Shown here piece by piece: positions 2,935-17,792 of a DNA stretch of 64,000 nucleotides (the first letter of the stretch is position 1; the number at the start of each line of letters is the position of its first letter). The notes beneath the pieces were generated by a model, which was not told the origin of the DNA, did not search any database, and saw nothing but the letters and a program-made list of their open reading frames with translations. The position numbers were made by a program, and so were the translations under genes. This stretch comes from Mesonia oceanica (GTDB lineage: Bacteria; Bacteroidota; Bacteroidia; Flavobacteriales; Flavobacteriaceae), in assembly GCF_902499555.1 (NCBI RefSeq), contig NZ_CABVMM010000003.1, positions 310,001 through 374,000 of the forward strand, read 5' to 3'.

Positions 2935-3018
2935 TCAAAAGGGGGTAAAACTGTTAATCTAATTTCAAATTAAATAAAGTTGAAGTAGTTTCTCGTAAAT
3001 TAGGAGCAAAATCTACCT

Positions 3019-3633
3019 ATGAGAAAGTTTTTACTCGGCGTTTTAGTTGCACTTGTTTGTTTTTTGGGTTACCAATACTTCAAAAACCAATTTCAAGAAA
3101 AAGAAGATTTGCTACAAGCTTCCAATTTAATTGAAAAGGAAATAAAAAATGTAAGTAAACTGGTCGTTTCTGAAGGGAGTTATGCTAAGGTCTATAATTA
3201 CGAGAATACCGAAAGTTTTATGTTTAAATTTCTTTCAGCGCGTAAAAAAGCCTTAGTGGTAGTGAATGCCAAGGCCAATGTAAGTTACGATTTGCGCGAG
3301 ATGAAATACGAAGTAGATGCAGCAAATAAAGTGTTGAAAATTACTCATATCCCAGCACCGGAACTCAACATCAATCCCGATATAAAGTATTACGATGTTA
3401 CCCAAGATTACTTGAATCAGTTTGAAGCGAAAGACTATAATAAGATTAAAAACAAGATTCAATCAGATTTAGAAAAGCAAATCAAAAATTCAGTATTGAT
3501 GAAAAATGCTGAAAACAGATTGGTTTCAGAATTGCAAAAGCTTTTTGTACTTACCAATTCGATGGGATGGACGTTGCAATACAATCAGCAAAACCTTAAT
3601 TCTTCCGAAGAACTTCAAGAGTTGAAATTATAG
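3019..3633 (+). CDS. DUF4230 domain protein, membrane-anchored
   Basis: This 204-residue protein has an N-terminal hydrophobic segment (about residues 4-19) that should act as an uncleaved anchor or signal, followed by a soluble domain resembling DUF4230 (NVSKLVVSEGSYAKVYNYE, then YDLREMKYEVDAANKVLKI). The molecular role of the family is unknown; in Bacteroidota it is a conserved, probably periplasmic protein. It starts 85 bp after the response regulator on the same strand and ends before a palindromic repeat at 3641-3688. Family assignment is from remembered sequence pattern only. Confidence 0.75.
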   Translation: MRKFLLGVLVALVCFLGYQYFKNQFQEKEDLLQASNLIEKEIKNVSKLVVSEGSYAKVYNYENTESFMFKFLSARKKALVVVNAKANVSYDLREMKYEVDAANKVLKITHIPAPELNINPDIKYYDVTQDYLNQFEAKDYNKIKNKIQSDLEKQIKNSVLMKNAENRLVSELQKLFVLTNSMGWTLQYNQQNLNSSEELQELKL

Positions 3634-3640
3634 ACTTTTC

Positions 3641-4508: not shown

Positions 4509-5582
4509 ATGGCAAAATTTCACGAAATTACCGTAAAAAGCGTTTACAAAGAAACCAACGATTGTACGGTTGTTGAGTTTGATGTTCCTAAAGATTTAGA
4601 AGAAGAATTCAAGTTTAATCAAGGGCAACATTTAACTTTAAAAAAAGATTTTAATGGAGAAGACGTAAGGCGTTCGTATTCCTTATGTTCAAGTCCGGTA
4701 GATAAAAAATGGCAAGTGGCCGTAAAGAAAATACCGACCGGTAAATTCTCAACTTTTGTAAATGAAGAATTACAGGCAGGAGACCATCTAGAAGTGATGG
4801 TTCCTAGTGGTAAATTTGGCGTAAAAGTTTCTTCTGGCGTGGCAAAAAACTATATCGTTTTCGCTGCCGGAAGTGGAATCACACCCATCCTCTCGATGAT
4901 TAAGACGCATTTGGCGATGGAGCCGGAAAGTAAATTTCAACTTTTCTACCTCAATAAAAATGCAAAATCGATCATCTTTAAAGAAGAATTAGAACAACTG
5001 CGAAATAAATATTTCGGGCGTTTTGAGATTTTCTACTTCTTAACTCGTGAGCAACGCGATATCCCTTTGTTTAACGGAAGGTTTGATGAAGAGAAAATTC
5101 AACAACTTACCAAAAGCTTGATCGATGTAGAATCGGTAGATGAATGTTTTATCTGCGGTCCAGAACAAATGATTTTCCTCTTACGGGATGAGTTGGAGAA
5201 AGCCGGGCTTTCAACAGATAAAATTCATTACGAATTGTTTGTCACCGGAGTTTCAGAAGAAGATAAGAAAAGAGCAGCAAAAGCAATAGAACATCAATTT
5301 GAAGGGACTGAGGTGACCATTCTCGATGGAGGAAAAGAATTCCATTTCGGGATGACAGACGATTACGATAATGTACTCGATGCCGCTTTAGGAGCCGGAG
5401 CAGATTTACCTTTTGCTTGTAAAGGTGGGGTTTGCAGTACTTGTAAATGTAAAGTACTTGAAGGTAGCGTAGAAATGAAAATTAATTATGCGTTAGAAGA
5501 TGATGAGGTCGCCAACAACTTTGTCTTAAGTTGTCAGTCGGTACCCACATCAGAAAAGCTGGTGGTCGATTTTGATGTATAA
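4509..5582 (+). CDS. paaE: Phenylacetyl-CoA epoxidase reductase subunit PaaE
   Basis: The product passes electrons from NAD(P)H to the PaaABC(D) epoxidase. It has an FAD-binding ferredoxin-reductase domain (RRSYSLCSSP), an NAD domain (VFAAGSGITPILSMI) and a C-terminal plant-type [2Fe-2S] domain with CKGGVCSTCKCKV and a distal Cys in VLSCQSVP. The ATG at 4509 (MAKFHEI) is preferred to the in-frame TTG at 4485, because that TTG lies inside the promoter -7 box. It is the first gene of the cluster rather than following PaaD as in E. coli. Confidence 0.95.
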   Translation: MAKFHEITVKSVYKETNDCTVVEFDVPKDLEEEFKFNQGQHLTLKKDFNGEDVRRSYSLCSSPVDKKWQVAVKKIPTGKFSTFVNEELQAGDHLEVMVPSGKFGVKVSSGVAKNYIVFAAGSGITPILSMIKTHLAMEPESKFQLFYLNKNAKSIIFKEELEQLRNKYFGRFEIFYFLTREQRDIPLFNGRFDEEKIQQLTKSLIDVESVDECFICGPEQMIFLLRDELEKAGLSTDKIHYELFVTGVSEEDKKRAAKAIEHQFEGTEVTILDGGKEFHFGMTDDYDNVLDAALGAGADLPFACKGGVCSTCKCKVLEGSVEMKINYALEDDEVANNFVLSCQSVPTSEKLVVDFDV

Positions 5583-5604
5583 TTCTCACACAGGTGGGAA
5601 TCTC
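5582..5604. repeat. Palindromic repeat, family A (diverged)
   Basis: ATTCTCAC (5582-5589), loop ACAG and GTGGGAAT (5594-5601), then CTC. The sequence has drifted from the ATTCCTGC...GCAGGAATCTC form, but pairing is kept apart from one G-T wobble. It begins at the last base of the paaE stop codon. Confidence 0.6.
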
Positions 5605-5698
5605 ATATAGAAACCTTAAATTAAGTTTAAGTGTTTTATTTTCAGAAGTATAATTATTATCTTTTAAAAAATTTGAAATTGTAGTATCAACCTGAATT

Positions 5699-5722
5699 GT
5701 CATACTGAGCCAAGTCGAAGTG
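5699..5722. repeat. Short repeat, family B (GTCATACTGAGCC...)
   Basis: GTCATACTGAGCCAAGTCGA followed by AGTG. It is nearly identical to 8355-8378 (2 differences in 24) and related to the GTCACCTTGAGCGGAGTCGA form at 13840 and 16521. It lies in the paaE-paaA spacer. Confidence 0.75.
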
Positions 5723-5775
5723 TTGTACAGGTTCTTATCCAGAGAATATTTTCAATTTCAACTAAAAAAGGAATT

Positions 5776-6732
5776 ATGAGTGAGCAAGAAGTAAAGAATT
5801 TAGAAGAGATGTTCGAGCAAAAAATTGCTCGTGATGAAAAGATAGAGCCTAAAGATTGGATGCCAGAGAAATATAGAAAAACACATATTCGTCAAATTTC
5901 TCAACATGCCCATTCCGAAATTGTAGGGATGTTACCAGAGGGAAATTGGATTACCCGTGCACCATCCTTAAGAAGAAAGGTAGCTTTGCTGGCAAAAGTT
6001 CAAGATGAAGCCGGTCACGGTTTGTACCTCTACAGCGCTTGCGAAACGCTAGGGATTTCTCGTGATGAGTTGTACGATCAATTGCATTCTGGCAAAGCCA
6101 AATACTCCAGTATTTTTAATTATCCAACCATAACTTGGGCAGATATGGGCGCTATTGGTTGGTTAGTAGACGGTGCGGCTATTATTAATCAAGTTCCGTT
6201 GTGTAATACTTCCTTTGGTCCTTATGCTCGTGCGATGGTGAGAGTTTGTAAAGAAGAGAGTTTTCATCAACGTCAAGGCTATGAGATTATGCTTACGCTT
6301 TGCCGCGGTACAGAAGAGCAAAAACAAATGGCTCAAGATTCTCTAAACCGTTGGTGGTGGCCAAGTTTAATGATGTTTGGTCCTACCGATGCAGAATCTA
6401 CACACACCGAGCAATCGATGAAATGGAAGTTGAAACGTAAAACCAACGATGAATTACGTCAACAATTTATTGATCAGACCGTTCCACAAGCCGAAATTTT
6501 AGGCCTAACCATTCCTGATGATGATTTAAAATGGAACGAAGAAACCGGTCAATACGATTTCGGAAAAATTAACTGGGATGAGTTCTGGCAAGTAGTAAAA
6601 GGTCACGGGCCTTGTAATAAAGAACGTTTGCAAACCCGAGTTGATGCTTGGGAAAACGGAGAATGGGTGCGTGATGCAGCAATGGCTTATTCAGAAAAGC
6701 AAGCCGCTAAAAAAGTTCAAAAAGCAAGCTAG
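5776..6732 (+). CDS. paaA: Phenylacetyl-CoA epoxidase catalytic subunit PaaA
   Basis: This is the di-iron monooxygenase subunit that epoxidises the ring of phenylacetyl-CoA. At 318 residues it has the usual length. The ferritin-like four-helix bundle carries the iron-ligand pattern: [15 protein letters not shown] in one helix pair and [13 protein letters not shown] in the other, plus the family-specific [11 protein letters not shown]. The ATG at 5776 is preceded by an A/G-rich AAAAAAGGA. It is separated from paaB by a four-helix-bundle insertion gene. Confidence 0.97.
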
Positions 6733-6745
6733 GTAAACAACGAAT

Positions 6746-7177
6746 TTGAATTCGAAAATGAAGCTGAAATTGAAAGATGAATAATAAGTTTGATTTGAGT
6801 GATCGTTTGGAAGATTTTGCTGCTAATATTATAGTAAAATACGATAAGAAACCGCTAAGCTATGCGGGAGATTATTTAGCTAAACAATTAATTCGTTCAT
6901 CTTGTTCCGCAGCTTTGAATTACGGAGAAGTATTAGGAGCCGGAACTTCTAAGGATAAGATTAATAAACTTAGAATTTGCTTAAAAGAACTCAGAGAATG
7001 TTTAAGAAATTTAAATATTCAAGTAAAAGCTGACTTAATTTCAAAAACTGATATTTCAGATTTAGTAGATGAAAATGATCAGCTCATTAGAATAATAGTT
7101 ACTAGAATAAAAAATATTAAATAATAAGTTGTCTTTGAATCTAAATGATAAACTCTTGTTTTCAATTTCGAATTCAA
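6746..7177. repeat. Inverted arms flanking four-helix-bundle gene 1
   Basis: TTGAATTCGAAAATGAA (6746-6762) and, as reverse complement, TTCAATTTCGAATTCAA (7161-7177) match at 16 of 17 positions. The arms bracket the gene at 6777-7124 and would let the transcript fold the gene into one large stem-loop, as do the termini of 23S rRNA intervening sequences. The arms are low in complexity, which weakens the significance. Confidence 0.6.
6777..7124 (+). CDS. Four-helix-bundle protein (23S rRNA intervening-sequence family), copy 1
   Basis: The 115-residue product is all-helical. It carries the family pattern YLAKQLIRSSCSAALNYGE and a KLRICLKELRECLRNLNI-type helix seen in TIGR02436 proteins. These are encoded in 23S rRNA intervening sequences and in scattered chromosomal sites; they form pentameric bundles related to Avd of diversity-generating retroelements, and their function is unknown. 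It lies between paaA and paaB, genes that are normally adjacent, and is flanked by inverted arms. It is 44% similar in layout, by eye, to copy 2 and less like copy 3; an alignment has not been run. Confidence 0.85.
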   Translation: MNNKFDLSDRLEDFAANIIVKYDKKPLSYAGDYLAKQLIRSSCSAALNYGEVLGAGTSKDKINKLRICLKELRECLRNLNIQVKADLISKTDISDLVDENDQLIRIIVTRIKNIK

Positions 7178-7202
7178 TTTCAATTTCAATTTAAATAAGG
7201 TT

Positions 7203-7496
7203 ATGTCAGACAAGAAAAAAAACTGGCCACTTTGGGAGGTTTTCGTAAGAAGTAAAAACGGATTAGAACACCGGCATTTCGGAAGTTTGCATGCTGCCGA
7301 CGAAGAAATGGCCTTGGAAAATGCAAGAGATGTATATACCAGAAGAAGCGAAGGCGTAAGCATTTGGGTGGTAGAATCGAAGCATATTAAAGCTTCCAAT
7401 CCTGATGAAAATGGAGAAATGTTCGAACCTGCGGCAGATAAAGTATATCGCCATCCAACATTTTACGATTTACCCGATGAGGTCAAACACATGTAA
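7203..7496 (+). CDS. paaB: Phenylacetyl-CoA epoxidase subunit PaaB
   Basis: The small structural subunit of the epoxidase has 97 residues, close to the usual length. It shows the hallmark WPLWEVFVRSKNGLEHRHFG, then LHAADEEMALENARDVYTRR and the WVVES strand. PaaB bridges PaaA-PaaC dimers in the complex. It starts at ATG 7203, just beyond the right arm of the inserted four-helix-bundle element, and ends two bases before a family A palindrome. Confidence 0.96.
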   Translation: MSDKKKNWPLWEVFVRSKNGLEHRHFGSLHAADEEMALENARDVYTRRSEGVSIWVVESKHIKASNPDENGEMFEPAADKVYRHPTFYDLPDEVKHM

Positions 7497-7497
7497 A

Positions 7498-7520
7498 ATT
7501 CCGGGCTAGGCAGGAATCTC
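7498..7520. repeat. Palindromic repeat, family A
   Basis: ATTCCGGGCTAGGCAGGAAT followed by CTC, in the paaB-paaC spacer. The right half matches the family exactly and the left half has drifted, so the hairpin is imperfect. It begins two bases after the paaB stop. Confidence 0.7.
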
Positions 7521-7572
7521 TAAAACTATTTCAGAAGAATCAAAGTAGTTTTTTCAACTAAAATAAAATTTA

Positions 7573-8328
7573 ATGAATAACGATAGTTTAATAAAATACA
7601 TTCTTGGGATTGCCGATAATTCTCTTATTCTAGGTCAACGTTTGGGAGAGTTAACCGGTCACGGTCCCACGCTGGAGGTAGATATCGCCATGACAAATAT
7701 TTCACTCGATTTATTCGGTCAGGTTCGTAGTTATTTTCAGTATGCTGCACAACTTTCTGAGGAAGATAAAACCGAAGACGACTTTGCTTTTTTGCGTACC
7801 GAACGTGAATATGTAAATGTATTATTGGTCGAGCAGCCCAACCGCGATTTTGCTTACACGATTGCACGTCAGTTCTTGTTTGATCATTTTCATTTTTTAT
7901 TGCTCAATGAATTGCAAAATAGCAAAGATGAAACCTTGGTAGCTATTGCAAAAAAGAGTTTAAAAGAGGCAAGCTATCACAGAAGGTTTTCTTCCGATTG
8001 GATCAAGCGTTTAGGAGACGGAACCGAAGAAAGTAACCGAAAAATTCAACTAGCCATCAACGATTTGTGGCGATTTACCGAAGAGCTCTTTCATAAGACC
8101 AAAGCCGATATAGAAGCCATAAAAGAAGGAGTTGGTGTGGATACCGATAAACTCAAAGAAAAATATTTAGCCAATGTAGCTGAAGTTTTAGAAGAAGCCA
8201 CACTTCAAAAACCAGTATTAGAATTTTTTCAAGAAGGCGGTAAAAAAGGAATCCATTCAGAACATATGGGGTATTTGTTAAGCGATATGCAATACATGCA
8301 ACGTACCTATCCCGGAATGAAGTGGTAA
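7573..8328 (+). CDS. paaC: Phenylacetyl-CoA epoxidase structural subunit PaaC
   Basis: The 251-residue ferritin-like partner of PaaA is needed for complex assembly and substrate positioning. Characteristic stretches are LGQRLGELTGHGPTLEVDIA, FLRTEREYVNVLLVEQPNRD, SLKEASYHRRFSSDWIKRLG and HSEHMGYLLSDMQYMQRTYP. Its stop codon is followed immediately by a family A palindrome, then by two further repeats before paaD. Confidence 0.97.
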   Translation: MNNDSLIKYILGIADNSLILGQRLGELTGHGPTLEVDIAMTNISLDLFGQVRSYFQYAAQLSEEDKTEDDFAFLRTEREYVNVLLVEQPNRDFAYTIARQFLFDHFHFLLLNELQNSKDETLVAIAKKSLKEASYHRRFSSDWIKRLGDGTEESNRKIQLAINDLWRFTEELFHKTKADIEAIKEGVGVDTDKLKEKYLANVAEVLEEATLQKPVLEFFQEGGKKGIHSEHMGYLLSDMQYMQRTYPGMKW

Positions 8329-8350
8329 ATTCCTGCGTAGGCAGGAATCT
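8329..8350. repeat. Palindromic repeat, family A
   Basis: ATTCCTGCGTAGGCAGGAAT plus CT, beginning at the base after the paaC stop codon. The hairpin is TTCCTGC, loop, GCAGGAA. It is the first of three different repeats stacked in this 139-bp spacer. Confidence 0.8.
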
Positions 8351-8354
8351 TATA

Positions 8355-8378
8355 GTCATACTGAGCCGAGTCAAAGTG
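8355..8378. repeat. Short repeat, family B
   Basis: GTCATACTGAGCCGAGTCAA followed by AGTG. It differs at two positions from the copy at 5699-5722, and is the second element in the paaC-paaD spacer. Confidence 0.75.
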
Positions 8379-8408
8379 TAGTAATACATAGAAAGAATCG
8401 AATTGGAG

Positions 8409-8437
8409 TGTCATGCTGAACTTGTTTCAGCATGACA
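8409..8437. repeat. Palindromic repeat, family C (intergenic copy)
   Basis: A perfect 12-bp stem: TGTCATGCTGAA (8409-8420), loop CTTGT, TTCAGCATGACA (8426-8437). The same CTGAACTTG-TTCAG core appears in frame inside paaH at 11293-11322. Could act as a transcript-stability hairpin; no T-run follows. Confidence 0.8.
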
Positions 8438-8467
8438 TCCTAACCTAAAACCGAAAAGCATAAAATA

Positions 8468-8968
8468 ATGATCGAAGAAAAAGCACATATTTCAGAAGAA
8501 TTAGAACCGATTCTTATGCAAGTTTCGGATCCTGAAATACCCGTGCTTTCCATTATCGATTTAGGTGTGGTTCGTTCAGCAGAAATTCATAACGGGATTG
8601 TTGAGGTGAAAATCACCCCTACCTATAGTGGTTGCCCGGCGATGGATGTGATTGGAGACGATATTAAAAGCGCACTTTTAGAGGCCGGTTACGAAGCCAA
8701 AGTCGATTTAGTTTTGTCGCCCGCTTGGTCCACCGACTGGATTACTGAAGCAGGAAGAAAAGCTTTGGAAGATTACGGGATTGCCGCACCACTAGAAGCT
8801 AGCGCCGATAAAAAAGCTTTACTGGGAGAAACCCAAGTTGTAAAATGTACCCACTGTGGTTCTAAAAATACACAAATGGTCAGTCAGTTTGGTTCTACCG
8901 CTTGCAAAGCCTTGTTTAAGTGCAACGACTGCCAAGAACCGTTTGACTATTTTAAATGTTTAATCTGA
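8468..8968 (+). CDS. paaD: Phenylacetate pathway protein PaaD (Fe-S maturation)
   Basis: The product has 166 residues. The N-terminal MIP18/DUF59-type domain has VSDPEIPVLSIIDLGVVRSA and a cysteine in YSGCPAMDV. The C-terminal zinc ribbon has CTHCGSKNTQ and CNDCQEPFDYFKC. PaaD is required for epoxidase activity, probably by maturing the PaaE iron-sulfur cluster or PaaA diiron site. Together with paaE, A, B and C it completes the epoxidase gene set. Confidence 0.95.
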   Translation: MIEEKAHISEELEPILMQVSDPEIPVLSIIDLGVVRSAEIHNGIVEVKITPTYSGCPAMDVIGDDIKSALLEAGYEAKVDLVLSPAWSTDWITEAGRKALEDYGIAAPLEASADKKALLGETQVVKCTHCGSKNTQMVSQFGSTACKALFKCNDCQEPFDYFKCLI

Positions 8969-9046
8969 AGGAATTGAAATCAAATCTGAACTCGAAATTG
9001 AAAAGAGTTGAGAGGTTTTCGACTTCAATTTCATTTTCTAAAAAAT
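8969..9046. repeat. Low-complexity inverted arms without a gene (paaD-paaG spacer)
   Basis: The spacer is built of GAATTGAAAT / CGAAATTGAA type segments, with an inverted pair GAAATTGAA (8994-9002) and TTCAATTTC (9024-9032). It resembles the arms around the four-helix-bundle genes but contains no open frame of note. It could be an empty or deleted element, or simply compositional similarity. Confidence 0.4.
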
Positions 9047-9829
9047 ATGAGTAAAAGCATTCAAGTTGAAATAAAAGATCAAGTAGCTAAAATAAGCCTT
9101 AACCGACCTGAAGTCTTCAATAGCTTTAATCGAGAAATGGCATTTGCATTGCAAGATGAGTTAAAAAACTGCGCTTCCAATAAAGAGGTTCGAGCTATTT
9201 TATTAACCGGAAACGGCAAAGCCTTTTGTGCGGGACAAGACTTAAAAGAAGTGACCGATCCCGAGCTAAACCCAGGCTTTAAATCTATTCTAGAAGAACA
9301 TTACAATCCTATTATTCAATTAATCAGGAGCATCGGTAAACCGATTGTTGCTGCTGTAAATGGAGTAGCTGCTGGTGCCGGGGCAAATATTGCATTAGCC
9401 TGCGATATCGTGGTTGCTACAGAACACGCTGCCTTTATTCAGGCATTTAGTAAGATAGGTTTAATTCCCGATAGTGCGGGAACGTTCTTTTTACCCAGAT
9501 TAATCGGTTTTCAAAAAGCATCAGCATTAGCGATGTTAGGTGATAAAGTTTCTGCGGAAGAAGCCGAACGCATAGGAATGATTTATAAATATTTTTCAGC
9601 AGCTTCCTTTGAAGAAGAAACTTGGAAGATGGTTAGCCAACTTGCTAAAATGCCAACCAAAGCATTAGCCTTAACCAAAGAAGCCCTTAATCAATCCTTA
9701 ACCAGTAATTTAGAAGAGCAATTGGCTTTAGAATCTAAAAACCAGATTGAAGCCGCTTCCACAGCAGATTATCAAGAAGGCGTAAACGCTTTTATCGAAA
9801 AAAGAAAACCAAATTTTAAAGGGAAATAA
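9047..9829 (+). CDS. paaG: Ring-1,2-epoxyphenylacetyl-CoA isomerase PaaG (crotonase family)
   Basis: The product converts the epoxide to oxepin-CoA and has 260 residues. The crotonase oxyanion-hole motifs are CAGQDLKE and GVAAGAGANIALACD. The PaaG-type catalytic aspartate is D142 in GLIPDSAGTFFLPRL, where hydratases usually have Glu/Gly. The ATG at 9047 (MSKSIQVE) fits the family start; the upstream in-frame TTG at 9008 would add 13 unrelated residues derived from the repeat-like spacer. PaaG rather than PaaF is chosen from the IPD motif. Confidence 0.88.
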   Translation: MSKSIQVEIKDQVAKISLNRPEVFNSFNREMAFALQDELKNCASNKEVRAILLTGNGKAFCAGQDLKEVTDPELNPGFKSILEEHYNPIIQLIRSIGKPIVAAVNGVAAGAGANIALACDIVVATEHAAFIQAFSKIGLIPDSAGTFFLPRLIGFQKASALAMLGDKVSAEEAERIGMIYKYFSAASFEEETWKMVSQLAKMPTKALALTKEALNQSLTSNLEEQLALESKNQIEAASTADYQEGVNAFIEKRKPNFKGK

Positions 9830-9860
9830 ACTATTTCAAACTTAGAAATTGCAAATTTTC

Positions 9861-10427
9861 TATTTCAAATTTGAATGAGCTTGTAGTAAAACTTAATTAG
9901 GTAATTTATGAAGGTAGATGATATAATAAAAGTCATGAATATTTGATGTAGATAACTGAAATTAAAAATAAAAATTTGAAAGAAATATGACCTCGGAAGA
10001 ATTAGAAAATAGATTAATTGATTTTGCTGTAAGTTGTATTAAAGCAACTAAGCATTCAGATCAAAGTTTTGCGTCTCAACATTTATGTAGTCAATTAATA
10101 CGTTCAGCTACGAGTGTTGCACTAAATTATTCAGAAGCTATTGCTGCGCAATCTGCAAGAGATTATATTCATAAAATGCAAATTTGTTTGAAGGAACTAA
10201 GAGAATCTAAAACAAATTTAAGAATTCAAAAAGGAGCAAATCTTCTGAAACAGATTGAGAAATTAGACAAATTAATAGATGAGTCTAATCAGCTTATTTT
10301 AATATTTTCTAAAAGTATTTCTACCTCAAAAAAGAAAAATAAATTAAAAAATTAAAAGACATAAAAATTCGGTTTAGAACTAAAACTAAATTTGAATTTT
10401 GAAATGAAACCTGAAAAATTTGAAATA
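9861..10427. repeat. Inverted arms flanking four-helix-bundle gene 2
   Basis: TATTTCAAATTT (9861-9872) and its exact reverse complement AAATTTGAAATA (10416-10427) bracket the gene 9987-10355; nearby TATTTCAAA (9832-9840) and AAATTTGAATTTTGAAAT (10388-10405) extend the likeness. The arms are AT-rich and simple, so a chance match is possible. Confidence 0.45.
9987..10355 (+). CDS. Four-helix-bundle protein (23S rRNA intervening-sequence family), copy 2
   Basis: The 122-residue helical protein is related to copy 1: HLCSQLIRSATSVALNYSEA and KMQICLKELRESKTNLRI align with YLAKQLIRSSCSAALNYGE and KLRICLKELRECLRNLNI. It has a lysine-rich C-terminus. It lies between paaG and paaH in a 600-bp spacer of simple AT-rich sequence. 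The gene is intact and has a plausible ATG (9987). The function of the family is unknown; its repeated presence in one operon suggests mobility or a shared RNA-level role. Confidence 0.83.
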   Translation: MTSEELENRLIDFAVSCIKATKHSDQSFASQHLCSQLIRSATSVALNYSEAIAAQSARDYIHKMQICLKELRESKTNLRIQKGANLLKQIEKLDKLIDESNQLILIFSKSISTSKKKNKLKN

Positions 10428-10428
10428 T

Positions 10429-11601
10429 ATGACTGTCGGAATCATAGGTAGCGGAACCATGGGAAGTGGAATAGCACAAGTAGCAGCCACGGCCGGTTGT
10501 ACCGTGAAAGTTTACGATACCAACCAAGAAGCTTTAACCAAAAGTGAAGCGAAGCTCGATAAAGTTTTACTTCGTCTCATTGAAAAAGAACGAATTGACG
10601 AAGCTGAAAAAAATAGGATTCAAGGAAATATCACTTATGTAAATACGATACAAGAACTTTCTGACGCCGATTTAACGATTGAGGCGATTATCGAAAACCT
10701 TGAAATCAAACAAAAAGTATTTCGCGAATTAGAAGCTTGCCAACGAGAAGATGCAATTATAGCCTCTAATACCAGTTCTTTATCCATAGCTTCCATTGCA
10801 TCGGCATTAGAACATCCGGAACGAGTGATTGGCGTTCATTTTTTTAACCCAGCACCATTAATGCCGTTGGTCGAAATTATTCCGGCCGTACAAACTTCTG
10901 AAGCTGTAAAAGAAAAAGTAGTTCAAATTATAGCCGACTGGAAGAAAGTAGGAGTATTAGCGAAAGATACACCGGGATTCATTGTCAACCGAGTAGCACG
11001 GCCGTTTTATGGAGAAGCACTAAGAATTTATGAAGAAGGCAAAGCCGATATTCCAACCATCGATCAAGCATTAAAAGATTTAGGAGGCTTTCGAATGGGG
11101 CCATTCGAGTTGATGGATTTTATTGGTCACGACGTGAATTACACCGTTACAGAAACCGTGTTCAAAGAATTTTATTACGATCCGCGTTACAAACCTTCTT
11201 TTACGCAAAAACGTTTAAAAGAAGCAGGCTATTTAGGTCGTAAAACCGGAAAAGGTTTCTACGATTACAAGGAAGGAAAGATTGATAAAAGTCGTCATCC
11301 TGAACTTGATTCAGGATCTCATCAAAATGAGTTTTCCCAAAAAATACTCGACCGGGTTTTAGTCATGCTTATCAACGAAGCAGCAGATGCTTTGTTTTTA
11401 AATATCGCCACCGCAAAAGATATCGATTTAGCCATGACCAAAGGCGTAAATTACCCTAAAGGATTGTTAGCTTGGGCTAACGAAAAAGGAATCGATTGGT
11501 GTGTTGAAAGTATGGATGCGCTTTACAACGAATACCACGAGGACCGTTACCGTTGCAGCCCGTTATTGAGAAAAATGGCACGTGAAGGGAATAGGTTTTA
11601 G
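10429..11601 (+). CDS. paaH: 3-hydroxyadipyl-CoA dehydrogenase PaaH, with in-frame repeat insertion
   Basis: This NAD-dependent 3-hydroxyacyl-CoA dehydrogenase carries out the beta-oxidation step after ring opening. The Rossmann motif is GIIGSGTMGSGIAQ, the catalytic His is in GVHFFNPAPLMPLVE, and the C-terminal helical domains include GFIVNRVARPFYGEA and GRKTGKGFYDY. ATG 10429 (MTVGIIGSG) is preferred to the TTG at 10420. Residues about 288-298 (SRHPELDSGSH) are encoded by a family C palindromic repeat that sits in frame in the linker between the two C-terminal helical segments; the frame remains open to the end. Confidence 0.95.
   Translation: MTVGIIGSGTMGSGIAQVAATAGCTVKVYDTNQEALTKSEAKLDKVLLRLIEKERIDEAEKNRIQGNITYVNTIQELSDADLTIEAIIENLEIKQKVFRELEACQREDAIIASNTSSLSIASIASALEHPERVIGVHFFNPAPLMPLVEIIPAVQTSEAVKEKVVQIIADWKKVGVLAKDTPGFIVNRVARPFYGEALRIYEEGKADIPTIDQALKDLGGFRMGPFELMDFIGHDVNYTVTETVFKEFYYDPRYKPSFTQKRLKEAGYLGRKTGKGFYDYKEGKIDKSRHPELDSGSHQNEFSQKILDRVLVMLINEAADALFLNIATAKDIDLAMTKGVNYPKGLLAWANEKGIDWCVESMDALYNEYHEDRYRCSPLLRKMAREGNRF
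11293..11322. repeat. Palindromic repeat, family C, inside the paaH coding region
   Basis: ATCCTGAA (11297-11304), loop CTTGA, TTCAGGAT (11310-11317), flanked by CGTC and CTCAT. It shares its core with the intergenic copy at 8409-8437. It is translated as RHPELDSGS without interrupting the frame. Confidence 0.85.
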
Positions 11602-12030
11602 GTAGTAGGTTTTAGGGAATAGGAATTAGGAAAATTATGAGGTCAAATTATCATTTTAAATTCGAAGATTTAAAAGTTTACCAAAAGGCAATGGATTTTG
11701 GGGAACTTGTGCATCATCAGACCAAAACGTTTCCAAAAGAAGAAAGATTTGAGTTGACCTCACAATTTAAGAGAGCAAGCGATTCGATCGCTCTAAATAT
11801 AGCAGAAGGTTCTGCTGGAACAGATAAACAATTTTATAATTATTTAGGTAATGCATATCATAGTATGCATGAATGCGTTTCTTGTAGTTCTAAAGCATTT
11901 CTTCGAAAGTATATTGATGAAGAAAAAAATGAGGAAAACCGAAAAAACTTAACAGAACTTGCAAAAATGATAAGTATACTTCGCAAGAAAATATCACAAA
12001 GATTATGAAAGAAGATAACCTAAAACCTAT
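11591..12030. repeat. Inverted arms flanking four-helix-bundle gene 3
   Basis: ATAGGTTTTAGGT (11591-11603) has an exact 13-base inverted partner, ACCTAAAACCTAT (12018-12030). The left arm continues as tandem TAGGTTTTAGGGAATAGGAA units and the right arm as CCTAATACCTAAAA. The right arm lies inside the first codons of paaI. Confidence 0.65.
11637..12008 (+). CDS. Four-helix-bundle protein (23S rRNA intervening-sequence family), copy 3
   Basis: The 123-residue product is the most typical family member of the three: FKFEDLKVYQKAMDFGELVH, FELTSQFKRASDSIALNIAE, then GSAGTDKQFYNYLGNAYHSM and a cysteine-containing helix HECVSCSSKA. It is clearly a different lineage from copies 1 and 2. It sits between paaH and paaI with TAGGTTTTAGG-type inverted arms. 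The stop overlaps the annotated paaI start (ATGA at 12005), so translation may be coupled. Confidence 0.9.
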   Translation: MRSNYHFKFEDLKVYQKAMDFGELVHHQTKTFPKEERFELTSQFKRASDSIALNIAEGSAGTDKQFYNYLGNAYHSMHECVSCSSKAFLRKYIDEEKNEENRKNLTELAKMISILRKKISQRL

Positions 12031-12433
12031 TTCCCCTCGCCTAATACCTAAAAGGATGCTTTCCCTTGATGCTTTTAGTCAATGGCTAGGTATTGAAATT
12101 GTAGAGGTTCGCGAAGGCTATTGCAAGGTGAAAATGACAGTGAGAAAAGAGATGCTTAACAGTATGAAAAAAGCACATGGTGGCATCACCTATTCGTTGG
12201 CAGATACGGCATTTGGTTTTGCTACCAATACGTATGGCAATAAAGCCGTTTCCATCGAAACTTCCATCAATCACATAGAAGCCTTAGAAGAAGGCGATGT
12301 AATTATTGCAGAGTCTGATGTGAAAAGTCAAAAAAATAAACTCGGTTTTTATATTGTTGAAGTGAAAAAAGAAAATCAATTAGTGGCACTTTTCAAAGGA
12401 GTCACCTATAAAACCAGTGCAAAATGGGAATAA
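12005..12433 (+). CDS. paaI: Hotdog-fold acyl-CoA thioesterase PaaI
   Basis: The 142-residue hotdog thioesterase hydrolyses dead-end ring-hydroxylated phenylacetyl-CoA and so rescues free CoA. The motif HGGITYSLADTAFGFATN contains the usual His-Gly-Gly and catalytic Asp. Two starts are possible: ATG 12005, overlapping the previous stop, or ATG 12056 (MLSLDAFSQWLGIE), preceded by AAAAGG. Residues 5-16 from the first start are encoded by the right arm of the neighbouring insertion, so the original N-terminus seems to have been replaced. Confidence 0.93.
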   Translation: MKEDNLKPISPRLIPKRMLSLDAFSQWLGIEIVEVREGYCKVKMTVRKEMLNSMKKAHGGITYSLADTAFGFATNTYGNKAVSIETSINHIEALEEGDVIIAESDVKSQKNKLGFYIVEVKKENQLVALFKGVTYKTSAKWE

Positions 12434-12480
12434 ACAAATGCAACACTCAATTTGTTGAAGTGTAAAATTAAAATAGTAAG

Positions 12481-12582
12481 GGCGCAACCCTAGCGGGTCG
12501 GGCTTTCGTGAGTCGCTTTTTTCAATTCCTGCGCAGGCAGGAATCTCAAAAGAGCTCCAACAATCACTCAATCCCTTGCGCA
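12481..12582. repeat. Long palindromic repeat, family D copy 1, with family A nested at its apex
   Basis: Left arm GGCGCAACCC...GGGCTTTCGTGAGTCGCTTT and right arm AAAAGAGCTCCAACAATCAC...TCCCTTGCGC match family D copy 3 at 24508-24616 closely (23 of 24 bases in the left inner arm). Between the arms lies a complete family A palindrome (12525-12547) in place of the T/A-rich loop. It fills the paaI-paaJ spacer. Confidence 0.75.
12525..12547. repeat. Palindromic repeat, family A (nested in family D copy 1)
   Basis: ATTCCTGCGCAGGCAGGAAT followed by CTC; hairpin TTCCTGC, loop GCAG, GCAGGAA. It is identical over the core to the copy at 17384-17407. It sits exactly between the two arms of the larger repeat. 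Confidence 0.85.
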
Positions 12583-12604
12583 AAAACTTAAAAAGAAGAG
12601 AAAA

Positions 12605-13816
12605 ATGAACACATACATTATAGACGGAATAAGAACTCCCATCGGAAATTACAAAGGAACTTTATCTCCCGTAAGAACCGACGATTTAGGAGCTTTGGTC
12701 ATCAAAGAAATAGTCAAACGAAATCCTAACATTCCTAAAGAAGCTTACGACGACGTCATTTTAGGCTGTGCTAACCAAGCTGGAGAAGATAACAGAAACG
12801 TGGCCAGAATGTGCTCATTATTGGCCGGTTTACCCTATTCTGTTCCTGGAGAAACAGTGAATAGATTATGCAGCAGTGGTCTTTCCGCTATTATTCACGC
12901 CAATCGTGCGATAAAAGCCGGTGACGGAGATGTGTTTATTTCCGGTGGAGTCGAACATATGACGCGCGGCCCTTATGCCATTGCCAAACCTTCCAGTGCT
13001 TTTGGGAACGATGCTAAAATGTACGATACCAGTTTCGGGTGGCGTTTCGTTAACCCAAAAATGCACGACATGTATGGCACCGATGGAATGGGCGTTACCG
13101 CAGAAAATTTAGTTGATAAATATAACATCTCCAGAGAAGATCAAGATGCCTTTGCATATTGGAGTCAGATGAAAGCGAGCAAGGCACAAGAAAACGGTCG
13201 TTTAGACAAAGAAATTGTCACCGTAGAAATTCCGCAGCGTAAAAAAGACCCTATTCAATTTAGTAAAGATGAATTTATCAAACCTTCTACTTCCAAAGAA
13301 ATTTTAGCAAAATTACGTCCGGCTTTTCGTAAAGAAGGCGGAAGCGTAACTGCCGGAAATTCTTCAGGATTAAACGATGGAGCTGCTGCCACCATTATTG
13401 CTTCAGAAAAAGCCGTAGAAAAATACGGATTAAAACCGATGGCAAAAATCTTAAGTTCAGCAGTAGTTGGTGTAGAACCAAGAATTATGGGGATTGGTCC
13501 GGTACAAGCTTCCAATAAAGCCTTAGAAAAAGCAGGGTTGACCATGGATGATATGGATGTGATCGAATTGAATGAAGCCTTCGCTGCGCAAGCCTTAGCT
13601 TGTATTCGTGAATGGGGCTTAGAAGATGACGATCCCAGATTAAACCCGAATGGTGGTGCTATTGCTATTGGTCACCCGCTGGGAGTTACCGGAGCAAGAT
13701 TAGCACATTCTGCCGCTTTAGAATTGCAATTAACCGGTAAGAGATATGCTTTAGTGACGATGTGCGTAGGCGTAGGACAAGGTTATGCTGCAGTCATTGA
13801 AAATGTTTCGGCTTAG
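12605..13816 (+). CDS. paaJ: 3-oxoadipyl-CoA/3-oxo-5,6-dehydrosuberyl-CoA thiolase PaaJ
   Basis: This thiolase cleaves 3-oxo-5,6-dehydrosuberyl-CoA and 3-oxoadipyl-CoA to acetyl-CoA and shorter acyl-CoAs, ending in succinyl-CoA. It has 403 residues, the usual length. The nucleophile is C89 in NRLCSSGLSA, the catalytic H357 is in GGAIAIGHPLGVTGAR and the second cysteine is C387 in MCVGVGQGYA. The ATG at 12605 follows AAAAAGAAGAGAAAA. PaaJ/PcaF naming is supported by the cluster; the sequence alone would also fit a general acetyl-CoA acetyltransferase. Confidence 0.94.
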   Translation: MNTYIIDGIRTPIGNYKGTLSPVRTDDLGALVIKEIVKRNPNIPKEAYDDVILGCANQAGEDNRNVARMCSLLAGLPYSVPGETVNRLCSSGLSAIIHANRAIKAGDGDVFISGGVEHMTRGPYAIAKPSSAFGNDAKMYDTSFGWRFVNPKMHDMYGTDGMGVTAENLVDKYNISREDQDAFAYWSQMKASKAQENGRLDKEIVTVEIPQRKKDPIQFSKDEFIKPSTSKEILAKLRPAFRKEGGSVTAGNSSGLNDGAAATIIASEKAVEKYGLKPMAKILSSAVVGVEPRIMGIGPVQASNKALEKAGLTMDDMDVIELNEAFAAQALACIREWGLEDDDPRLNPNGGAIAIGHPLGVTGARLAHSAALELQLTGKRYALVTMCVGVGQGYAAVIENVSA

Positions 13817-13839
13817 GTAGGAAATTTGAAGTTCAAAAT

Positions 13840-13864
13840 GTCACCTCGAGCGGAGTCGAGAGGT
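13840..13864. repeat. Short palindromic repeat, family B
   Basis: GTCACCTCGAGCGGAGTCGA followed by GAGGT, in the paaJ-paaZ spacer. ACCTC and GAGGT pair at the ends. It is closely related to the copy nested in family D copy 2 at 16521-16546. Confidence 0.75.
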
Positions 13865-13884
13865 CAAACATAAAACACATAAGA

Positions 13885-16401
13885 ATGCAAAAAACACAAC
13901 ACTATATTTTAGGACAATGGGTCGACGGTCAAGGAGAGGGAACCCCGATTCTAGATTCGGTAACCGGCGAACATTTTACCAATGTCACCACCGAAGGAAT
14001 TGACGCTCCGGAAGTACTTCAATACGGAAGAGTAAAAGGAGAGGCCCTTCGTAAAATGACCTTTCAAGAACGCGGAAATATGCTGAAGAAGCTGGCCTTT
14101 CATCTTCAAAAACATAAACGTTCTTTTTATGAAATCAGTTATCGAAGTGGTTGTACCAAAATTGATAGTTGGATCGATATTGAAGGTGGTTTTGGTAACT
14201 TGTTTGCCAACGCTTCACTTCGTAAGTTATTCCCGAATCAGCCTTTCGATGTAGAAGGAGAACCGATTGATCTTTCTCGTGGCGGTAAATTTATGGCGCA
14301 TCATATTTTGGTTCCTAAAAATGGTGTTGCCGTTCATATCAATGCATTCAATTTTCCGGTTTGGGGAATGTTAGAAAAATGTGCCGTCAATTGGATGGCA
14401 GGAATGCCGGCAGTCGTGCTGCCTGCACCTCAAAGTGCGTATTTAACCGAAGCAGTAGTGAAGGTAATTATCGCTTCCGGAATTTTACCGGAAGGGGCAT
14501 TACAATTGATTAGCGGAACCAAAAAAGATATTTTCGATACCATCGCATCTCAAGATGTAGTCACTTTTACCGGTTCTGCGGCAACAGGTAGAAAACTAAA
14601 AACGCATCCAAGATTAATCGAAGAGTCCGTGCCATTTACGATGGAAGCCGATTCACTCAATGCTTGTATTTTGGGCGAAGATGCCGTTCCTGGAACACCT
14701 GAATTCAACCTCTTTATCAAAGAAGTCCGAAATGAAATGACGGTGAAATGCGGACAAAAGTGTACGGCCATTAGAAGAATTATCGTTCCGGAAAAATTAG
14801 TAGAAGATGTACAAATTGCTTTAGGGCAAGCACTCGATAAGGTGACCTACGGTGATCCTCGCTTAAAAGAGGTGAGAATGGGAACGTTGATTGATAAAAA
14901 ACAAGTAGAAAGCGTTAAAAATCAGGTACAAGAAATTGCCAAAACGGCGAATATCGTATATGGTGATTTTGAAGGAGGAAAAGCTATTGGTGCCGATTTT
15001 GATAAAGGTGCCTTTATCAAACCTATCTTGCTTCGAGAAGACCATCCTTTTAGTAACGAAGCAGCCCATATTACCGAAGCTTTTGGTCCGGTAAGTACCC
15101 TAATGCCGTATAAAGATTTAAATGAAGCAATAGAACTTTCTCGAAAAGGAAAAGGTTCGTTAGTGAGTTCCATCGCTACGAATGACAATAAAGTTGCAGC
15201 GGAATATACCGTAAAAGCAGCAACGCACCACGGTCGTATTTTAGTACTGAATCGCGAAAGTGCCAAGCAAAGTACCGGTCACGGTTCGCCATTACCAAAT
15301 CTTATTCACGGAGGTCCGGGACGTGCCGGTGGTGGAGAAGAAATGGGCGGTAAACGAGGAATTAAGCATTATATGCAGCGTTGCGCGATTCAAGGTTCAC
15401 CAACGACCATCAGCGAGATTACGGGAATTTACCAACCGAATGCCGATTATAAAGAAGCAGAAAAACATCCGTTTGCTTATCATTGGGAAGATATCAAACC
15501 GGGAATGTCCTTGCAAACACATAACCGAACGCTTACCGATACCGATATTATTAACTTCGGAAATCTAACTTGGGATCACTTCTATGCGCATACCGATATT
15601 ACTTCGTTGGAAGGAAGTATTTTCGAACAACGAACCGCACACGGTTATTTTATCATTTCTGCAGCGGCAGGATTGTTTGTGTACCCAAATAAAGGTCCGG
15701 TAGCAGCAAATTATGGTCTAGAAGAAATTAGATTCTTGCGTCCGCTGTATCATAACGATACCATTAATGTACGATTGACTTGTAAGCAAAAAGTAGATCG
15801 CGATCAAAAAGGAAAAGAATTGCCAAGCGGAATCGTAAAATGGTATGTAGAAGTTTTTGATGTAAATGCTACGGAAGAAGAAGAGAAATTGGTTGCCATT
15901 GCTACTATTTTAACGATGGTACAGAAAAAACAAACCACCTTTACAGAAATTACCGATTCAGTTTTTGAAAAAGCTTTGAATGGGTTAACGGAAGATACCA
16001 AACCGAATTGGGGGATGATGACAGCCCAACATATGGTGGAACATTTAGAAGATAGTTACCGAATTGCAGCCGGTGAAATTCAAGATTTTGAGGTTGCCAC
16101 TCCAGAAGATAAACTGGAAATGGTGCAGGAAACCTTGTGGAACTATAAACCAATGCCGAAGAATTTCAACTTTCCTTTTTATAAAGAAGGAGAATTGTTC
16201 AAGTTGAAACATGAAGATTTAGCTACGGCAAAAGAAAAGCTAAAGGAAGCCAAGGAGCAATACGAAAATTACTTTCAGGAACATCCGGAAGCAATTACGA
16301 AAAATGCGGTATTTGGCGAGCTCAACAAATTTGAATGGAAATTGTTGCACAGAAAGCACCTCAATCACCATTTTGAGCAGTTTGGATTATTAGAGAAATA
16401 G
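13885..16401 (+). CDS. paaZ: PaaZ oxepin-CoA hydrolase / semialdehyde dehydrogenase with extra C-terminal DinB-like domain
   Basis: This bifunctional enzyme opens oxepin-CoA and oxidises the resulting aldehyde. The aldehyde dehydrogenase domain (about 1-515) has catalytic C293 in CGQKCTAIRR and general base E254 in FTMEADSLNA. The MaoC-type hydratase domain (about 530-675) has NLTWDHFYAHTD and RTAHGYFIISAAAG. At 838 residues it is about 150 longer than E. coli PaaZ: residues about 685-838 (NWGMMTAQHMVEHLEDSYRI, ending HLNHHFEQFGLL) look like a DUF1569/DinB-type four-helix domain with conserved histidines. The role of this fusion is unknown. Confidence 0.95.
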   Translation: MQKTQHYILGQWVDGQGEGTPILDSVTGEHFTNVTTEGIDAPEVLQYGRVKGEALRKMTFQERGNMLKKLAFHLQKHKRSFYEISYRSGCTKIDSWIDIEGGFGNLFANASLRKLFPNQPFDVEGEPIDLSRGGKFMAHHILVPKNGVAVHINAFNFPVWGMLEKCAVNWMAGMPAVVLPAPQSAYLTEAVVKVIIASGILPEGALQLISGTKKDIFDTIASQDVVTFTGSAATGRKLKTHPRLIEESVPFTMEADSLNACILGEDAVPGTPEFNLFIKEVRNEMTVKCGQKCTAIRRIIVPEKLVEDVQIALGQALDKVTYGDPRLKEVRMGTLIDKKQVESVKNQVQEIAKTANIVYGDFEGGKAIGADFDKGAFIKPILLREDHPFSNEAAHITEAFGPVSTLMPYKDLNEAIELSRKGKGSLVSSIATNDNKVAAEYTVKAATHHGRILVLNRESAKQSTGHGSPLPNLIHGGPGRAGGGEEMGGKRGIKHYMQRCAIQGSPTTISEITGIYQPNADYKEAEKHPFAYHWEDIKPGMSLQTHNRTLTDTDIINFGNLTWDHFYAHTDITSLEGSIFEQRTAHGYFIISAAAGLFVYPNKGPVAANYGLEEIRFLRPLYHNDTINVRLTCKQKVDRDQKGKELPSGIVKWYVEVFDVNATEEEEKLVAIATILTMVQKKQTTFTEITDSVFEKALNGLTEDTKPNWGMMTAQHMVEHLEDSYRIAAGEIQDFEVATPEDKLEMVQETLWNYKPMPKNFNFPFYKEGELFKLKHEDLATAKEKLKEAKEQYENYFQEHPEAITKNAVFGELNKFEWKLLHRKHLNHHFEQFGLLEK

Positions 16402-16421
16402 AAAAGTATAAAATTAAAGTT

Positions 16422-16442
16422 CCCCTCCTTTTGAAGGAGGGG
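16422..16442. repeat. GC-rich hairpin repeat after paaZ
   Basis: CCCCTCCTT (16422-16430), loop TTG, AAGGAGGGG (16434-16442) is a perfect 9-bp stem, followed by GGCGGGGTGG. It is markedly GC-rich against its surroundings. This looks like another dispersed repeat type and could hinder transcription, but no T-run follows. Confidence 0.65.
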
Positions 16443-16464
16443 TCCCAATAGGGCGGGGTGGTTT

Positions 16465-16596
16465 GTGTTAGGGATAGAAGCCCATCGGCTCCGCTCAGAA
16501 TAAACTAATCTTTTTTTGCTGTCACCTTGAGCGGAGTCGAAAGGTGTTAGAGAGCAAAAAAAACACAGGGAATAGCCCGACCCGAAGGGAAACGCC
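16465..16596. repeat. Long palindromic repeat, family D copy 2 (inverted), with family B nested at its apex
   Basis: It runs from TGTTAGGGATAGAAGCCCAT to AGCCCGACCCGAAGGGAAAC-GCC, opposite in orientation to copies 1 and 3. The inner stem TTTTTTTGCT (16511-16520) pairs with AGCAAAAAAA (from 16553), and the loop between holds a whole family B palindrome (16521-16546). It occupies the paaZ-crotonase spacer. Confidence 0.7.
16521..16546. repeat. Short palindromic repeat, family B (nested in family D copy 2)
   Basis: GTCACCTTGAGCGGAGTCGA followed by AAGGTG; the ends CACCTT and AAGGTG pair. It lies exactly in the loop of the larger repeat's inner stem. Confidence 0.8.
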
Positions 16597-16624
16597 AAAA
16601 AATATAAAAATAAAAAGCGATTTT

Positions 16625-17383: not shown

Positions 17384-17407
17384 ATTTCCTGCGCAGGCAG
17401 GAATCTC
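17384..17407. repeat. Palindromic repeat, family A, left flank of GIY-YIG gene
   Basis: TTCCTGC, loop GCAG, GCAGGAA (17387-17404) then TCTC. It starts at the base after the preceding stop codon and lies 17 bp before the GIY-YIG start. Confidence 0.85.
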
Positions 17408-17424
17408 TTTGATCGTGATTTTAA

Positions 17425-17748
17425 ATGAATGAAGTTTGGTACATCTATATTATGACAAACAAACCAAATGGCGTTTTGTACATTGGTGTTACCGATAATT
17501 TAGAAGAAAGAGTAAAAGAGCATAAGTTGAAAGTTTATCCGAAGTCTTTCACAGCAAGGTACAATTGTGATAAGCTTGTGTACCTAGAAGAAATTGAAAA
17601 TGGAGTAGAAGCAGCGAAGCGAGAAAAGCAATTTAAAAAGTGGAAAAGAGATTGGAAAATTAAATTAATTGAGGAAATGAATCCTAGGTGGATTGATATT
17701 TCAGAAAATTGGAATCTAGATTATAAAAATTCTAGATTAAGAAAATAA
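17425..17748 (+). CDS. Stand-alone GIY-YIG nuclease
   Basis: The 107-residue product is a minimal single-domain GIY-YIG endonuclease: WYIYIMTNKPNGVLYIGVTD carries the two tyrosine motifs, ERVKEHK the catalytic arginine, and the tail has REKQFKKWKRDWKIKLIEEM and NPRWIDIS. Such short proteins are common in Bacteroidota. Here it lies between the second crotonase and paaY, with a family A palindrome on each side in opposite orientation (17384-17407 and 17765-17785). This suggests a mobile or repeat-associated nuclease rather than a pathway enzyme. Confidence 0.92.
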   Translation: MNEVWYIYIMTNKPNGVLYIGVTDNLEERVKEHKLKVYPKSFTARYNCDKLVYLEEIENGVEAAKREKQFKKWKRDWKIKLIEEMNPRWIDISENWNLDYKNSRLRK

Positions 17749-17764
17749 AGTTAAACGATAATAA

Positions 17765-17785: not shown

Positions 17786-17792
17786 AATACAT

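Follow-up and report, generated by a model that had tools for sequence, protein, structure and literature searches.

IVP/S23-family genes occur in the intervening sequences (IVSs) of 23S rRNA genes in Leptospira, Coxiella and other bacteria, where inverted ends form a stem around the open reading frame (ORF). In the Coxiella IVS, tandem heptamers (GACAGAT) lie 5′ of the S23p ORF and the IVS is excised by RNase III; S23p is described there as having no known function (PMC4990558). In bacteria of the candidate phyla radiation (CPR), IVP and homing-endonuclease (GIY-YIG/LAGLIDADG) ORFs are described as using the same rRNA insertion sites (PMC11270868), and PF05635 has been said to resemble Avd (PMC10053308), a protein of diversity-generating retroelements. 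Here, we analyzed a 64,000-nucleotide stretch of Mesonia oceanica (contig NZ_CABVMM010000003.1, positions 310,001 to 374,000; hereafter the window), in which the paa operon is interrupted by three PF05635 genes for four-helix-bundle proteins (IVP1, IVP2 and IVP3) in the paaA–paaB, paaG–paaH and paaH–paaI spacers. Each gene lies between inverted arms, marginally so for IVP2, and we consider it probable that such units are minimal mobile elements akin to the rRNA intervening sequences, including recognition of the arms. The mobile-unit part of this reading is likelier than the binding part.

The arms also recall the heptanucleotide repeats of cyanobacteria, which are named STRRs. In the Nostoc tRNA-Leu intron, the P6b stem carries degenerate heptads (TDNGATT and NNTGAGT) that are replaced as a whole and turn over rapidly (PMC4476775), and TAACTGA arrays are described in Beggiatoaceae, Cyanobacteria and five Bacteroidetes, Aequorivita among them (PMC4679880). 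The likeness lies in degenerate 7-nt tandem units that build a stem; the IVP3 arm qualifies, and the IVP1 arms have a period of 6. In contrast to those repeats, the arrays here form inverted pairs around IVP genes; the earlier reports make no link between repeats and an IVP gene, and PMC4679880 nowhere mentions S23, four helix or intervening sequence. Compared with the 23S rRNA IVSs, the protein family is the same and the complementary ends can pair into a stem that encloses the ORF (weakly for copy 2), and heptamers likewise lie beside the S23p ORF of Coxiella. However, the window elements lie between paa genes rather than inside a 23S rRNA gene, so that the host is a protein-coding operon; long degenerate heptad arrays with a lineage-specific motif stand on both sides; and the host mRNA must remain continuous, at least at paaH–paaI. 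A literature search, mostly excluding subscription journals and preprints, found no report joining operon IVP genes with inverted heptad arms, the Coxiella heptamers being the nearest.

All three window genes exceed the curated cut-offs of both PF05635 and TIGR02436 in profile searches: IVP1 (6777–7124, forward strand; 43.5 and 68.1 bits, respectively), IVP2 (9987–10355, forward; 53.8 and 79.7 bits) and IVP3 (11637–12008, forward; 101.2 and 91.9 bits), which is a separate lineage. A reading made earlier from the sequence alone (the sequence-only reading) had proposed that three such genes split paa neighbours, and these scores and the neighbour assignments confirm it. The whole source genome (G000, with the window on its contig C3) holds four PF05635/TIGR02436 matches. 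Between the arms, the sole ORF with a Pfam match is the IVP gene, and no transposase gene lies there; window positions 5000–19000 hold no Rfam match over the gathering score. A defence-system identity of the IVPs was dropped, since PADLOC gave no match for the three proteins at an E value of 0.01.

The arm pairs of the window were found by best local alignment and compared with 2000 dinucleotide shuffles per element. In element 1, hexad repeats GAANNN at 6742–6762 face TTC repeats at 7161–7181 (forward-strand positions, as for all arms), with 19 of 21 positions complementary (p = 0.0015). Element 3 has an upstream period-7 array TAGGNNN (11582–11632) that overlaps the end of paaH; its best-paired part, 11587–11603, is complementary at 16 of 17 positions to the downstream arm at 12018–12034 (p = 0.002). 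Nowhere else does the window have a strong period-7 array. The arms of element 2 (9861–9872 and 10416–10427) match at 12 of 12 positions, which is marginal alone (p = 0.034) and fails correction for three tests; the family claim rests on permutation and cluster tests in larger sets. The sequence-only reading had given 16/17, 12/12 and 13/13 matching bases and had called for a shuffle test, which elements 1 and 3 pass and element 2 passes only marginally. In predicted RNA folds, 19 of 44 upstream-spacer bases pair with the downstream spacer for IVP1, 9 of 157 for IVP2 and 28 of 54 for IVP3. The proposal that these are stem-loop elements in operon spacers is supported by the paired arms.

To extend the comparison, we collected 180 unique IVP genes from loci of Mesonia, other Flavobacteriaceae and some relatives of the order; 37 were dropped as incomplete or lacking 120-nt flanks, leaving 143. 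The upstream flank (U) was aligned to the downstream flank (D) in reverse complement. The mean score is 12.92 for own partners against 7.95 for swapped partners, the best of 10,000 permutations reaching 8.58, and 101 control genes with spacers average 8.69. Scores of at least 14 are found in 56/143 IVPs and 1/101 controls, and scores of at least 12 in 79/143 and 5/101. The signal persists when each 60%-identity cluster is represented by a single random copy (12.68 own versus 7.86 swapped over 41 clusters) and in a Bacteroidota-wide set of 28 loci (12.48 versus 7.38; none of 5000 permutations as high). In direct orientation, own partners score 9.31 and other partners 7.91, a small excess, so common simple composition accounts for a minor part of the arm match. 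As judged from these alignments, the arms pair with their own partners, and in the Bacteroidota examined they are diagnostic of the surroundings of IVP genes. A comparison of consensus heptads gave a weak signal (2.92 versus 2.55; at most 2.65 in permutations; n = 115), since the array finder extends its arrays too far, and it was replaced by the alignment test.

The arms are periodic. Among the 143 IVPs, 132 U and 101 D spacers of at least 30 nt were used for autocorrelation. Shuffled spacers have a lag-7 identity of 0.309 (U) and 0.322 (D); the real ones reach 0.446 (z = 25.7) and 0.492 (z = 29.0), with peaks at lags 7, 14 and 21 and a minor one at lag 8. For control spacers the excess is slight, with z = 7.8 at lag 6 and z = 6.1 at lag 7. 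The strongest lag is 7 in 89/132 upstream and 71/101 downstream arms, and the two arms agree in it in 77/98. The repeat period is 7 nt in most copies and 6 nt in IVP1. In 1.28 Mb of loci (overlaps between loci included), mostly chosen because they bear IVPs, we found 330 distinct period-7 arrays, 215 of which lie at most 200 nt from an IVP ORF (108 upstream, 107 downstream; 25.6 expected by length). Random samples (10 × 20 kb per class) from four IVP-rich and three IVP-free genomes, a small sample, gave seven and one period-7 arrays, respectively, and the reverse for period 6 (three and nine).

The arms also have a strand polarity. U arms are poor in C and D arms poor in G; neither arm is likely to fold well alone, and each could pair with the other. 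An upstream excess of G over C together with a downstream excess of C over G is found in 103/143 IVPs, compared with four reversed; for the 56 strongest-armed IVPs the counts are 47 and zero, and for the 101 control genes 16 and 26. The IVP2 arms of the window deviate by eye from this rule. Stop codons were considered as a cause of period 7, since 7 mod 3 = 1 brings a stop into every frame. Stops in all frames occur in 71% of upstream arms versus 50% of shuffles and in 37% versus 29% downstream; this explanation was not adopted, because the effect is real but partial and some motifs (GGGAACA) are stop-free. Separately, the longest heptad array found, of more than 600 nt, adjoins an IVP gene in another genome (L112:3333–3966, G001).

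The arm motif follows the IVP lineage. For example, one well-filled spacer, which has a 3-hydroxyacyl-CoA dehydrogenase/hydratase gene on one side and a thiolase gene on the other (as read from L127), provided 26 copies, picked by end motifs, whose arms differ by eye (TGTANNN, GAGTATT, CTTATGA and CTAGA types). Here, own partners score 12.62 and other partners 9.38, a difference reached in none of 10,000 permutations. These 26 IVPs form 14 groups on a FastTree tree of 143 tips, and the well-supported groups (0.993–0.995) have a common motif. For IVP pairs in different gene contexts, the arm similarity is 13.3–13.5 below 45% IVP identity (7489 pairs), 16.97 at 55–65% (213 pairs) and 18.74 at 65–80% (29 pairs), and cross-complementarity climbs likewise. 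In these comparisons, the repeat motif is particular to the IVP lineage and stays with it at whatever site it occupies. The arms, which the sequence-only reading had called simple sequence, are indeed repetitive, but they are periodic and their motif is tied to the gene lineage; pairing is better than in shuffled sequence, and arms co-vary with their partners both in the 143 IVPs and in the 26-copy spacer, so that the test which that reading had set for its own refutation did not overturn it.

The occupancy of spacers and the divergence of their contents point to mobility. Relatives of IVP1 are found at paaA–paaB in four Mesonia genomes, at paaB–paaC in Winogradskyella, Psychroserpens, Luteirhabdus, Aequorivita and Cochleicola, and in Dokdonia, where a 76% identical relative separates greA from a HIT-domain gene; GAANNN arms are present in all ten IVP1-lineage copies with flanks examined. 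In L200, of the IVP1 lineage, the gene is frame-shifted, and the left arm alone was examined as DNA. Within Mesonia, IVP genes occupy paaA–paaB in four genomes, paaD–paaG in two, paaG–paaH in nine, paaH–paaI in five and paaF–paaY in five (three or four genomes were not covered for the last), with minimum changes on the tree of 3, 2, 3, 3 and 5, respectively. The nearest relatives of IVP3 are unlike those of IVP1 and IVP2. Repeated insertion, with copy 3 from another lineage, is therefore upheld by the distinct tree lineages and by spacers that are polymorphic within the genus.

A transfer is evident at paaG–paaH. Between the source genome and G003, windows across IVP2 are 92–97% identical and the flanking genes about 78–80% (windows of 72–91% in paaG and 62–84% in paaH), and the synonymous difference is 0.20 in IVP2 compared with 0.68 and 0.67 in the flanks (p = 1e-12). 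The tract of high identity ends at most about 100 nt from the element on both sides. Since the element is far more identical than its flanks, it was transferred with little else. We compared 23 same-spacer pairs of at least 75% protein identity (p values unadjusted, pairs not independent); eight have p < 0.01, all at paaG–paaH or paaH–paaI, and the element is always the less diverged part. By sequence divergence, the gene-plus-arms unit is transferable between species with little flanking DNA. The mobility that had been proposed for these genes is thus borne out by the IVP1 lineage at several spacers and by the element-limited identity at paaG–paaH. In G006 and G012, IVP1 is absent and arm pieces are kept (26/27 nt in G006), as after gene loss.

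The pairing extends to cyanobacterial plasmids, of which 12 of 37 records matching an IVP query were used. Own partners score 16.38 and swapped partners 7.96, and none of 5000 permutations is as high. By eye, the arms are clearly inverted heptads in eight copies (AGTAGGG/CCCTACT in Nostoc edaphicum and GGGAACA in Nostoc sp. C052 are examples), direct repeats in three and unclear in one. Two 50-kb stretches hold 14 and 6 arrays, two of which flank an IVP gene in each; in the first, these two are the strongest. Two of these plasmid genes lie within CRISPR operons, cas6–IVP–cas4 in Pseudanabaena galeata and cas10–IVP–cmr3 in Picosynechococcus sp. PCC 7003 (L208, L215).

IVP genes are widespread, being present in 15/16 genomes of the genus, 89/120 sampled in the family and 116/148 sampled in the phylum. 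The ratio of non-synonymous to synonymous divergence (dN/dS) is 0.047–0.121 in ten IVP pairs with dS > 0.2, some of them saturated in dS, and 0.047–0.106 in six IVP1 pairs; on this codon comparison, the proteins are under purifying selection. The AlphaFold2 model of IVP1 has four helices and a mean confidence (pLDDT) of 92.7. Its best solved relatives are 2rld (Z = 17.6, root-mean-square deviation 1.7 over 109 aligned residues), with five chains, and 2gsc (Z = 16.1, 2.0 over 111), deposited with five chains as well. The Avd structures score lower, with Z = 12.9 for 8ub7 and 12.6 for 4dwl, and a pectin methylesterase inhibitor, an unrelated protein, ranks above them (Z = 13.6); thus, the fold does not single out Avd.

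The IVPs resemble Avd of diversity-generating retroelements as four-helix bundles of similar size. They differ in sequence and context: with the Avd model NF033474, IVP3 scores 25.9 bits, under the cut-off of 80, and IVP1 and IVP2 are not matched; no reverse transcriptase (RVT_1) match is present on the window contig, the matches of the source genome lying on contigs C15 and C2. The kinship with Avd stated in the sequence-only reading stands as a likeness of fold, which does not distinguish Avd from other four-helix bundles. Dependence on a reverse transcriptase was rejected. No RVT_1 match was found in four IVP-rich Mesonia genomes, G001, G008, G010 and G013 (9, 11, 8 and 7 IVP matches; G013 is a 90%-complete draft), so a genome-encoded reverse transcriptase is not needed at the search sensitivity used.

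Each unit is about 400–550 bp long and consists of one IVP/S23-family gene and two inverted copies of one degenerate array of 6–8 nt (mostly 7 nt) repeats. From these features, we infer how arm binding and transfer might work. An IVP pentamer, as in the solved relatives, would recognize its cognate arms when paired, either as operon RNA or as single-stranded DNA. This recognition would join the ends of the element and lead to homing into gene–gene junctions, helped by host functions. The arms would let the IVP ORF sit between cistrons as a stem-loop and leave the operon intact, while heptad slippage and copying between arms would renew them with complementarity kept.

Several observations weigh against the mobile-element reading. 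By alignment score, the arms of many copies are weak or decayed, 64/143 falling below 12, a level reached by 5/101 controls, and in one Mesonia IVP (L021) the same heptad array stands on both sides in direct rather than inverted orientation, as in cyanobacterial L208, L209 and L218 (3/12). Arrays away from IVPs lack a partner in 73/115 cases, and 12/14 and 4/6 arrays of the two cyanobacterial stretches are not at IVPs, so cyanobacterial heptads are not confined to them. In addition, 15/23 same-spacer pairs do not reach p < 0.01 for transfer and look vertically inherited, with flank-like divergence; these include all ten pairs at paaA–paaB, paaD–paaG and paaF–paaY. The precise empty sites in relatives that had been suggested as a check were not found, and neither was a target duplication, among the spacers examined; the empty paaH–paaI junction of G005 is not the filled junction minus the insert. 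No IVP pair of more than 80% identity stands in different contexts in the IVP set, as recent within-genome jumps would leave. Homologous recombination could move the spacer instead.

The last point leads to the strongest rival, in which the arms are regulatory or insulating RNA stem-loops around an ordinary resident gene and the few transfers came about by homologous recombination of part of the operon rather than by element mobility. The IVP genes are co-directional with the downstream gene in 143/143 cases and with both neighbours in 134/143, compared with 68% around 610 ordinary genes; the arm polarity follows the IVP strand; and the vertical-looking copies at paaA–paaB, paaD–paaG and paaF–paaY have the synonymous divergence of their flanks. 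However, one lineage with one arm motif stands at three unrelated spacers, and the identity tract at paaG–paaH ends close to the element on both sides. Moreover, 4/12 cyanobacterial copies run antisense to the genes on both sides, and the inverted arms are clear in two of these four. We regard this explanation as unlikely.

A second rival would make the arms a functionless by-product of mutation, heptad slippage and template switching between arms around any tolerated insert. The fast-changing degenerate heptads of the Nostoc P6b stem (PMC4476775) and the tandem heptamers beside S23p in the Coxiella IVS (PMC4990558) are in keeping with it. So are gene-less heptad hairpins, which do exist in the loci: 31 of the 115 arrays away from IVPs are paired with no ORF between, mostly as short hairpins, and 11 enclose an ORF of at least 60 residues, four of which are IVPs after all. 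Yet this account leaves the clustering of arrays at IVPs, the 103-to-4 polarity and the match of motif and lineage across sites unexplained, and we hold it to be distinctly improbable.

The elements might also be true mRNA intervening sequences, in which RNase III cuts the stem and the IVP segment is released as in 23S rRNA. The same protein family, the terminal stem and the RNase III excision described for Coxiella (PMC4990558) fit this idea. However, cutting without ligation would part the cistrons, and in 5/5 Mesonia copies at paaH–paaI the first in-frame ATG of paaI lies inside the element, ahead of the right arm, which is translated as an N-terminal tail of PaaI; in genomes without an element there, PaaI begins MINGAEIP or MIKGTEIP. 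Excision from the mRNA therefore cannot be obligatory at this site, against the excision or processing suggested in the sequence-only reading, and we consider this explanation very improbable. Chance pairing of AT-rich simple sequence, to which the marginal copy 2 and the slightly raised same-orientation score might appeal, is refuted at the family level, though not for copy 2 taken singly, by the permutation, shuffle, control-gene and cluster tests, and its likelihood is negligible.

Returning to the mobile-element reading, a broader form of it is possible but doubtful: a cross-phylum class in which a pentameric Avd-like protein is paired with a cognate inverted heptad array and has no recombinase or reverse transcriptase of its own. 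The IVP would be a specificity factor that recognizes, maintains or even generates the arrays. If so, the heptanucleotide repeats in both cyanobacteria and Bacteroidota, long without an explanation, would, gene-less hairpins included, be autonomous and non-autonomous forms of IVP elements, and the polarity, with the G-rich strand entering the element from both sides, would fit telomere-like repeat addition to both 3′ DNA ends at the insertion site or pairing at the RNA level. Apart from this broader form, the partnership of gene and arms would give the rRNA intervening sequences a place in a wider family of mobile elements. The lineage-specific inverted array offers a concrete candidate ligand for IVP, and IVP a candidate protein for heptad repeats.

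The genes around the three elements all lie on the forward strand. Element 1 stands between paaA (5776–6732; TIGR02156, 542 bits, over cut-off) and paaB (7203–7496; TIGR02157, 157.5 bits). Upstream of element 2 is a paaG-type enoyl-CoA hydratase gene (9047–9829; PF00378, start codon picked by eye), whose best NCBIfam match, TIGR02280, is nevertheless under the cut-off of that model. A paaH-type 3-hydroxyacyl-CoA dehydrogenase gene (10429–11601; NF006124, 518 bits, over cut-off, computed on 10420–11601) separates elements 2 and 3. It is followed after element 3 by a paaI-type thioesterase gene (12005–12433; PF03061), the first ATG of which overlaps the IVP3 stop codon and for which TIGR02286 is the best NCBIfam match at 109.8 bits versus a cut-off of 118.9. 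The downstream arm of element 3 is an in-frame part of this reading frame. Annotation is affected, since arm sequence is taken for the ends of genes, namely the C-terminus of PaaH and the N-terminus of PaaI.

Other repeats occur in the same operon. The paaF–paaY spacer of the window holds a GIY-YIG ORF (17425–17748, 67.3 bits) where other Mesonia hold an IVP gene. It is framed by copies of a palindrome, TTCCTGCGCAGGCAGGAATCT, at 17385–17407 and 17765–17787, single copies of which lie in other window spacers, for example near 8330 and 12525; the ORF and its palindromes may be another gene-plus-repeat pair. This recalls the CPR rRNA insertions in that IVP and GIY-YIG genes are both found in one Mesonia spacer; unlike those insertions, the site is not in rRNA, and the window GIY-YIG ORF has palindromes instead of heptad arms. 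Another type of palindrome, ATCCTGAACTTGATTCAGGAT, sits in frame within paaH at 11290–11320 and occurs in spacers as well, for example at 8410–8440.

Lastly, in Mesonia, three IVP genes from differing lineages are split by an insert of roughly 290 bp, in every case at one and the same codon within the conserved SxPxN..EG motif (L111, about 3000–3620, G014:C1:406710–407318; L101, about 3034–3637, G008:C7:39634–40236; and L122, G009:C5:4665–5270, minus strand). The ends of the insert are inverted, ACCTGTGAAAT...ATTTCACAGGT, in two of the three and one base off in L101. It carries an ORF of about 87 residues, and the one tested, from L111, is GIY-YIG (65.7 bits). The insert has the look of a site-specific homing element that resides in IVP genes.

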